This document shows, one piece after another, positions 58,767 through 60,155 of a DNA stretch of 64,000 bases (position 1 is its first letter; each line of letters starts with the position of its first letter). The notes beneath the pieces were generated by a model that saw nothing but the letters and a program-made list of their open reading frames with translations, was not told the DNA's origin and did not search any database. The stretch is from Ruminococcus difficilis (GTDB lineage: Bacteria; Bacillota_A; Clostridia; Oscillospirales; Acutalibacteraceae): assembly GCF_016680995.1 (NCBI RefSeq), contig NZ_JAEQMG010000163.1:138383-202382 (forward strand), in the 5' to 3' direction. A program made the translations under genes and the position numbers.

Positions 58767-58810
58767 TGATGTTACTCGCCGACTTTTGTCGGCTCAAACA
58801 TCAATGCAAT

Positions 58811-58863
58811 CCATCAGTCGTCCAACACGTATCGGACGACAGCTCCTTTACCAAAGGGAGCCA
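58811..58863. repeat. Palindromic element, family C copy 6
   Basis: CAGTCGTCC/GGACGACAG hairpin, then GCTCCTTTA/AAAGGGAGC hairpin. Confidence 0.7.
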
Positions 58864-58873
58864 AAAAAAATAG

Positions 58874-58902
58874 TTGCAAAATCGAAAGCAATCGTATATA
58901 AT
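58874..58902 (+). promoter_or_regulatory. Sigma-A promoter of the cysE-cysS T-box leader
   Basis: TTGCAA (58874-58879), 17-nt spacer, TATAAT (58897-58902). Confidence 0.82.
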
Positions 58903-58914
58903 ATGGTAGATATC

Positions 58915-59313
58915 AAAAGGCTGTGAACAGGAAAAGTAGCTTTACGGATGCTAACAGAGAGGACGGCAATACTAATTCCAAATAAAACTCGTTAAATAGG
59001 TATTAGCGTAGAATTTCGCATAACGCGGCGGACGACGCAGGCAGGGTCACCCCCTGTCAAGGAGTCCAACAAAGCTATGCGGAATTATACGAAATAGATA
59101 TTAACAGTATTTATTTGAAATTAGTATATAGCTGGAAGCCGTCTTAGCGGAAGTTCAGTGAAATGCGCCTGTGAGCTGACTGCAGGAAATGGCAGTCCGT
59201 CAGTCCGCGTTAAGGACGATAGCTTATTTATGAGCTTCAAAGAGCGTATTATACGCTGAACTTGGGTGGAACCACGGCGCTGTCGTCCCCTCGGACGACG
59301 GCGCTTTATTATT
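58915..59313 (+). ncRNA. Cysteine T-box riboswitch, with an insertion in stem I
   Basis: Stem I elements: AGTA near 58936, CAGAGAG (about 58955-58961), the apical hairpin GACGGC...GCTGGAAGCCGTC, and a specifier loop GTGAAATGC with specifier codon TGC (Cys) at 59164-59166. The T-box TGGGTGGAACCACGGCG is at about 59263-59279; the intrinsic terminator GCGCTGTCGTCC/GGACGACGGCGC plus TTTATT lies at about 59277-59310. Uncharged tRNA-Cys would pair with TGC and the T-box and allow read-through into cysE and cysS. The apical loop is split by an element of about 157 nt at 58971-59127. Confidence 0.92.
58971..59127. repeat. MITE-like inverted-repeat element inside the T-box stem I loop
   Basis: ACTAATTCCAAATAAA at the left end pairs with TTTATTTGAAATTAGT at the right end; the long imperfect inverted repeat (about 50 nt each side) encloses a CAGGG-tcac-CCCTG core. 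It is flanked by TA on both sides and contains no gene. Confidence 0.75.
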
Positions 59314-59397
59314 TCTCATGAATTGTTTGCAATTTAATTCACGGAGCACGATCATCGATTTTTCCGATATAGATGTCACCTCTACCAATCAGGTTCA

Positions 59398-59440
59398 CCT
59401 ACTGAAATTCCTCATTCCTAACTCCTAATTCCTAATTTAT
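59398..59440. repeat. Isolated arm of family A repeat in the cysE leader
   Basis: ATTCCTC, ATTCCTA, ACTCCTA, ATTCCTA, ATTT: four 7-nt units, ending 13 nt before the cysE start. Confidence 0.55.
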
Positions 59441-59453
59441 AAAGGTTGATATT

Positions 59454-60155
59454 ATGTTTGACACACTGAGAGCCGATCTGGACGCCTATTTACAGCGCGA
59501 CCCCGCGGCACGCAACAAGATGGAGGTATTCTTCCTCTACTCGGGCTACAAGGCGGTACGCAAATACCGCCGCGCGCACTGGTTCCAGATCCACAATATG
59601 AAGTTTATCGCACGCTGGCTGAGTCAGCGCGCGCGCAACAAAACCGGCGTCGAGATCCATCCCGGCGCGACCATCGGCAAGGGGCTGGTGATCGACCACG
59701 GCATGGGCGTCGTCATCGGCGAGACCACCGTGATCGGCGACAACTGCCTGATCTACCAAAACGTCACCCTCGGCGGTACGGGTAAGGATCAGGGCAAGCG
59801 CCATCCCACCCTCGGCGACAACGTGATGGTCGGCTCGGGCGCGAAGGTGCTCGGACCGTTCAAGGTCGGCGACAACTCCCGCATCGCGGCGGGCGCCGTC
59901 GTACTCACCGAGATCCCGCCCAACTCCACCGCGGTCGGCGTACCGGCGCGCGTCGTGCGCGTCAACGGCGTAAGACCCGATCTGCTCGACCAGATCCACT
60001 ACTCCGATCCCGTGGCGCAGGAGCTCTGCCGTATGCATAACGAGATCCAGCAGCTCAGCAACGAGGTGCGCTATCTGGAAAAGAACGTCAGTCAGGCGGT
60101 CGAGCTCGCCGCGACCTCTCACAATGATTCATCACAGAAAGGAAGTCAATCATGA
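59454..60155 (+). CDS. cysE: Serine O-acetyltransferase
   Basis: 233 residues. Short form lacking most of the long N-terminal CysE domain, with left-handed beta-helix repeats from GVEIHPGATIGKGLVIDHGMGVVIGETTVIGDN (segments about 65-97) with the catalytic His/Asp (IDHGMG), then NVTLGGTGKDQGKRHPTLGDNVMVGSGAKVLG and VPARVVRV. The C-terminal tail after about 185 is a coiled region (LCRMHNEIQQLSNEVRYLEKNV). It makes O-acetylserine, the precursor of cysteine. Expression is controlled by the T-box and it overlaps cysS by 4 nt. Confidence 0.96.
   Translation: MFDTLRADLDAYLQRDPAARNKMEVFFLYSGYKAVRKYRRAHWFQIHNMKFIARWLSQRARNKTGVEIHPGATIGKGLVIDHGMGVVIGETTVIGDNCLIYQNVTLGGTGKDQGKRHPTLGDNVMVGSGAKVLGPFKVGDNSRIAAGAVVLTEIPPNSTAVGVPARVVRVNGVRPDLLDQIHYSDPVAQELCRMHNEIQQLSNEVRYLEKNVSQAVELAATSHNDSSQKGSQS

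Follow-up and report, generated by a model that had tools for sequence, protein, structure and literature searches.

How does a cysteine riboswitch fare when its tRNA-contacting loop has been interrupted? The question is raised by the leader of a cysE-cysS operon in a 64,000-nt stretch of Ruminococcus difficilis DNA (hereafter the window, meaning the whole stretch that was analysed). All parts of an RF00230 T-box with a long stem I and an interdigitated double T-loop were found in this leader, which differs from such a T-box by 159 extra nucleotides in the distal loop of stem I. According to passages of PMC7583486, the tRNA elbow is contacted by two interlocked T-loops with the consensus sequences AGAGA and UGxRA. 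The same passages state that a transcriptional T-box whose double T-loop is disabled binds tRNA much less strongly and is compromised in function, and that insertions occur in every domain of the T-box, where they are curious and of unexplained function. We conclude that a MITE-like palindrome has very probably been inserted in the distal loop with the recognition motifs uncut, and that the switch should still fold and probably works.

Relatives of the insert were sought in 39 genomes around the nearest genome and in ten genomes chosen through their cysE loci, some of the ten being probably the same assemblies as in the other genome set. Eighty-eight T-boxes were found in 11 genomes, and 30 of them were examined as loci. 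The distal loop was scanned in 111 sources, comprising the window, these 30 T-box loci and 80 cysE loci. For the repeat family, 114 non-overlapping profile hits were reduced to 67 non-redundant full-length copies by excluding partial hits, copies less than 30 nt from a locus end and copies sharing 20-nt flanks. Some of these copies, such as L004 and L017, look mutually orthologous, but they are few. Covariation was assessed in 30 copies, picked mostly for diversity, with RNAalifold and pair counts.

The features of the leader and operon are listed in Table 1. Every T-box part named in the earlier note on this DNA (AGAGA, the apical stem, the specifier TGC, the T-box sequence and the terminator) is present, as is the UGxRA T-loop. 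The cysE product scored 231.8 bits with TIGR01172, above the cut-off, and 232.4 bits with NF041874 (EpsC, serine O-acetyltransferase). It is 100% identical across 233 aa to that of locus L061 (JAHKVW010000006.1, 'bacterium isolate bin172'), and the promoter -10 region has the same letters in L061 and in L062 (uncultured Ruminococcus sp. RUG10988). Two minor features of the region were recorded. A short internal repeat, CATTCCTAACTCCTAATTCCTAAT (59413-59436), lies just 5' of the cysE start and is kept in L061, L062 and L065. The terminator tail (59306-59315) reads TTATTATTTC in the window and TTTTATTC in L061, and the T-tract of the window is possibly weaker.

Table 1. Features of the interrupted cysE-cysS leader and its operon (positions in the window).
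Feature	Position	Strand	Basis
Sigma-70-like promoter of the leader	58874..58902	+	TTGCAA, 17 nt, TATAAT; consensus scan
Interrupted T-box leader of cysE-cysS	58915..59313	+	Region scores 55.4 bits with RF00230
AGAGA, first of the two elbow-binding T-loops	58956..58960	+	Sequence and AGAGA consensus (passages of PMC7583486)
Apical stem I helix, 5' strand GACGGC	58962..58967	+	Pairs with 59138-59143
Left flank CAA, at the position of the family's TNA triplet	58967..58969	+	Differs from the right flank
Inserted palindromic repeat, family unit ATACTAA...TTAGTAT (159 nt)	58969..59127	+	Family matches, fold, absence in kin
Right flank TAT, at the position of the family's TNA triplet	59127..59129	+	Differs from the left flank
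TGGAA, second of the two elbow-binding T-loops	59133..59137	+	Consensus UGxRA (passages of PMC7583486)
Apical stem I helix, 3' strand GCCGTC	59138..59143	+	Pairs with 58962-58967
Specifier codon TGC (cysteine)	59164..59166	+	GAAATGC context common to relatives; putative role, from position
T-box sequence GGGTGGAACCACG	59264..59276	+	Sequence, RF00230
Intrinsic terminator stem, tail TTATTATTTC	59276..59305	+	Stem and tail
cysE, serine O-acetyltransferase, 233 aa, intact	59454..60155	+	ORF, NCBIfam models
cysS, cysteine--tRNA ligase, 485 aa	60152..61609	+	Start overlaps the cysE end; TIGR00435, 447.6 bits (above cut-off)

An Rfam scan of the whole window returned nothing at gathering score. Scored alone, the leader region remained below the RF00230 gathering score of 93 bits and stem I was misplaced; the low score is due to the insert. 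The orthologous leaders L061, L062 and L064 (Ruminococcaceae bacterium UBA4306) reached 115.1, 113.9 and 117.4 bits, respectively. Over positions 58800-59500, Rfam gave only the T-box match, the misplaced 5' end of which enters the insert, and three chance-level matches outside the insert. The insert had no match in the plasmid and phage collections. No ORF of at least 30 aa lies wholly within it, and a 39-aa frame on the opposite strand overlaps only its last bases.

The uninterrupted state of the leader can be read from close relatives. The insert is absent from L061, L062, L064 and L065, and the two closest leaders (L061 and L062) are normal T-boxes with an 11-nt distal loop, ATAGGCTGGAA in both; the loop of L064 is AAATGCTGGAA. 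When the 159-nt unit is removed from the window, an 11-nt loop, AATAGCTGGAA, remains. L061 is identical to the window at 54/54 bases to the left of the insert and at 97.3% of 183 to the right, and between 58915 and the last base of the terminator stem the two differ at three loop positions and four others. Among the 67 distal loops that were parsed out of the 111 sources, which are not independent (some leaders are present twice, from two collections), 50 were 11 nt, six were 12 nt and nine were 13 nt long; the others were the 170-nt loop of the window and a 59-nt loop (L131) that is a misparse and is 11 nt by eye.

The earlier note had placed the insert at 58971-59127, which is correct to within two bases: the family unit begins at 58969, and the element proper without its 3-bp target (TACTAA...TTAGTA) spans 58970-59126, or 157 nt. 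Its location in the distal loop of the elbow-contacting hairpin also stands, with the refinement that the segment separates the apical stem from the second T-loop. It occupies the 5' side of the loop, where the bases differ between relatives, ahead of the UGxRA T-loop; therefore, both T-loops and the apical stem are uncut. The long inverted ends described earlier are real. The outer arms (58969-58995/59101-59127) are 81% complementary over 27 nt, and the inverted arms span nearly the full length of the element, the best predicted fold having 60 pairs. The fold of 58969-59129 has an energy of -56.2 kcal/mol, compared with -28.2 (sd 3.7) for 200 dinucleotide shuffles, none of which was as good (z -7.5).

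The leader was folded with and without the insert, as had been proposed in the earlier note. For naked RNA without tRNA, the partition function predicted 0.02 pairs between the insert and the T-box, and the unpaired probabilities outside the insert in the two folds were correlated at 0.993, with a largest single difference of 0.26. We propose the following model. A non-autonomous MITE-like palindrome of about 157 nt would have entered the distal loop of stem I on its variable 5' side, moved by a transposase probably supplied in trans. Both T-loops (AGAGA and UGGAA in the transcript), the specifier, stem II, the antiterminator and the terminator are uncut. Since its ends are complementary (about 60 predicted pairs), the insert should emerge from the loop of the transcript as a separate, long side arm. 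The T-box would still fold and switch, and binding of the tRNA elbow would possibly be weaker or slower. Most likely, the segment was inserted recently and is tolerated as an independent side hairpin. On balance, the interrupted riboswitch probably still works, and tRNA sensing would be retained, perhaps altered. We propose more tentatively that the mobile arm of a working T-box might shift the affinity or kinetics of tRNA binding and thereby the degree of starvation at which cysteine synthesis is switched on, and that mobile palindromes might feed T-box insertions.

It is conceivable, though we rather doubt it, that the insertion cripples elbow recognition: the arm would distort or block the double T-loop, antitermination would fall and cysE-cysS would be under-expressed in cysteine starvation. 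The insert does lie in the distal loop, home of the UGxRA T-loop, although it leaves both T-loops uncut and occupies bases that vary among relatives. According to passages of PMC7583486, tRNA affinity can drop by as much as 60-fold when the motif is disrupted. In the predictions for naked RNA, the apical stem forms with a probability of 0.74 with the insert and 0.99 without it, whereas the insert itself is predicted to fold independently. For the rest of the T-box to be so well preserved, this explanation takes the insertion to be too recent for decay; with only four non-loop differences from L061, the leader has indeed had little time to decay.

A different fate of the side arm would be cleavage. 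By analogy with the Correia elements of Neisseria, a double-strand RNase of the RNase III type might cut the long, near-perfect stem and leave a nicked, two-piece T-box or a destabilised leader. Passages of PMC10969869 report that RNase III cuts Correia-containing transcripts and that ERIC shows RNase E effects. The stem of the insert is interrupted by mismatches, however, and we regard cleavage as unlikely.

The identity of the insert is given by its relatives. The search for other copies suggested in the earlier note found many in the genomes of relatives, and its description of the insert as a MITE-like, multi-copy palindrome was borne out. Copies occur in 8/39 genomes around the nearest genome, namely in 8/24 of the genus (G001 included) and in 0/15 of the order's other families, and in 9/10 of the genomes chosen through cysE loci, with up to 45 per genome among the matches listed. 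Carrier genomes of the genus have from one to several tens of copies. The 67 full-length copies are 147 to 178 nt long, mostly 158-159 nt, and the family has the marks of a MITE, being short, noncoding and dispersed in multiple copies with terminal inverted repeats. Among the matches listed, the highest identity to the insert was 81% (G078 and G077), and the best-scoring copy had 75% identity in the L061 genome and 74% in G001. No near-identical source copy was thus found among the matches listed from the relatives' genomes.

The earlier suggestion of a TA target was not upheld, as the family duplicates a 3-bp TNA. The next-but-one base beside the unit is T on the left in 61/67 copies and A on the right in 62/67, the intervening base being free, and the flanks thus read TNA-[TACTAA...TTAGTA]-TNA. 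TNA is found at both flanks in 58/67 copies. The triplets on the two sides are identical in 48/67 copies, compared with 26% agreement in random left-right pairings, and every identical triplet is a TNA (22 TTA, 16 TAA, 7 TGA and 3 TCA). The window copy has CAA and TAT, that is, no intact duplication; just one other copy likewise has TNA at neither flank. Its net gain over the 11-nt loop is 159 nt, against the 160 nt expected from 157 + 3. The event or its aftermath was therefore not textbook. The insertion may itself have been atypical, or the duplication may have changed since; the 159-nt gain fits both.

The lack of an intact duplication could also point to an assembly artefact in which a repeat was misplaced between the halves of one T-box, and many contigs of these metagenome assemblies do end in family copies. 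Such errors normally join two different loci, whereas the flanks here are the correct, ordered halves of a single T-box with near identity to L061. A repeat-joined chimeric contig is therefore unlikely, and we consider an artefact quite improbable.

The arms of the hairpin covary strongly across the family. In the 30 aligned copies, 29/46 pairs changed on both sides (170 cells, compared with 50.6 in shuffles), and 96.2% of cells were paired, compared with 84.0% in shuffles and 33-43% when the arms were slid; the covariation extends to the hairpin tip. In the RNAalifold structure, G-U pairs were by eye far commoner than A-C mismatches, an excess that is biased, since RNA energies had guided the choice of that structure. 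A strand-neutral self-alignment of the 67 copies without wobble preference gave 223 GT and 229 AC; per copy, GT exceeded AC in 19 and fell below it in 23, the others being equal. In majority Watson-Crick columns of the 30 copies there was a weak lean toward GT (32 cells in 13 columns, and 13 AC cells in 8 columns). Selection on the hairpin at the RNA level was rejected, as the strand-neutral count has no strand-specific wobble excess, and selection on the RNA form is therefore not claimed; maintenance of a palindrome at the DNA level or arm-against-arm correction would give the same covariation. That the hairpin is an ancestral T-box domain or a lineage-specific extension of stem I, to which its covarying arms and the unexplained T-box insertions in passages of PMC7583486 might lend colour, is extremely improbable, since the same sequence family stands at dozens of unrelated sites and, in keeping with the insertion favoured in the earlier note, no other parsed leader or examined T-box of a relative has it.

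An autonomous parent was sought through the family's ends and through transposase genes. The family-end patterns, run in five and seven genomes (the first, in five genomes, caught mainly another repeat family), gave facing ends with an outer span of about 160-280 nt and no pairs 1-2 kb apart among the matches listed. A PF01609 search of nine genomes gave seven matches in five genomes, and no parent was found beside the six matches other than L214, which were scanned for TACTA-type ends only. IS5-family groups include ones with TNA targets. These groups have the 3-bp TNA duplication in common with the repeat family, but the single transposase unit examined next to a copy (L214) carries different ends, GGGCTTGTTTAA. 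In this insertion sequence (L214:1066-1932, in G082), two overlapping frames together encode a PF01609-type transposase; its ends are GGGCTTGTTTAA/TTAAACAAGCCC, and it is flanked by a TA duplication. It lies within the right end of a repeat copy, and it was rejected as the parent on account of its different ends and of this position inside a copy.

A second repeat family was also observed, with ends TNATACTAAACTCTGA..TAAAA in facing pairs about 70-160 nt apart (G077:C171:4377-4538, G018:C42:1884-2046, G084:C53:4833-4994 and G013:C12:67950-68019). The TACTAA terminus and TNA flanks are common to both families.

ERIC and Correia elements target TA. The present family differs from them in its TNA target and in being a sequence family of its own, the insert having no Rfam family. 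It is like these elements, as they are described in passages of PMC10969869, in being short and palindromic, in lacking a long frame, in reaching tens of copies in some genomes and in lying mostly between genes. In the pneumococcal trp operon, a BOX element lies between two T boxes, and regulation there is still functional, as its authors conclude from RNA-seq (passages of PMC3049150). The two cases are alike in that a repeat is co-transcribed with T-box riboswitches; the BOX element separates two whole T-boxes, whereas the window repeat lies within one, in the elbow-binding loop. In the open-licence literature (titles and abstract starts), no mobile insertion inside a T-box or riboswitch was recognised, the BOX element being the nearest case, and the searches on cysE T-boxes and on MITEs in Ruminococcus gave nothing on the subject; no paper on the repeat family was found in the open-licence literature. 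The T-box and the type of element are already known; as far as searched there, an insertion inside the elbow-binding loop is undescribed.

The leader amounts to a natural insertion experiment on a riboswitch tip whose RNA-RNA recognition is well studied, and it has an uninterrupted counterpart in strains that differ at few other leader positions. Mobile palindromes with pairing ends offer a concrete, testable origin for the T-box insertions left unexplained in passages of PMC7583486; if this is true, the window would hold an early-stage case of a mobile palindrome becoming a T-box insertion. The leader also draws attention to a repeat family of uncultured bacteria, many of them from ruminant or other animal guts by their record titles.

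Copies of the family are mostly intergenic. Frames open for 60 codons on both sides were interrupted by 2/67 copies, compared with 47% of 1340 random TNA sites within the same flanking DNA. A preference for hairpin loops as targets was considered and rejected: 22/67 empty sites lay in predicted loops (either strand), compared with 37% of 996 control TNA sites, and there is therefore no sign that the T-box loop was targeted for being a loop. Copies adjoining terminator-like hairpins are over-represented, T-box terminators included (for example L012 and L070). Terminator-like stems end within 16 nt of 14/67 copies, compared with 45/665 control TNA sites in non-coding DNA (odds ratio 3.6, Fisher p 0.0004, with orthologous-looking copies counted separately). 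The copy in L070, 147 nt long with TTA on both sides, lies within the T-tract of a cysE T-box terminator.

None of the 30 T-box loci had a family hit inside the T-box, and two of them (L221, G081:C53, and L245, G018:C60) have a hit that directly adjoins it. For the other 58 T-boxes, coordinates compared by eye gave no overlap with family copies among the matches listed. The first 22 bases of a copy lie about 40 nt downstream of the T-box in G077:C7, at the contig end. In the linker of a cysE T-box, L073:2308-2339 is a 32-nt hairpin with TACTAA/TTAGTA ends and flanks TTA/TAA, which may be an internal-deletion derivative of the family. The cysE T-boxes of L113 (1940-2227) and L116 have a much enlarged stem II loop, of about 70-80 nt. 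Stem II of L113 (TATACTAA...CAGTAT) was rejected as a second T-box insertion, as L116 is comparably extended there and the L113 genome has no family match. Cobalamin riboswitches were seen downstream of two copies, at 7 nt in L003 (1074-1459) and at 25 nt in L203 (1282-1658).
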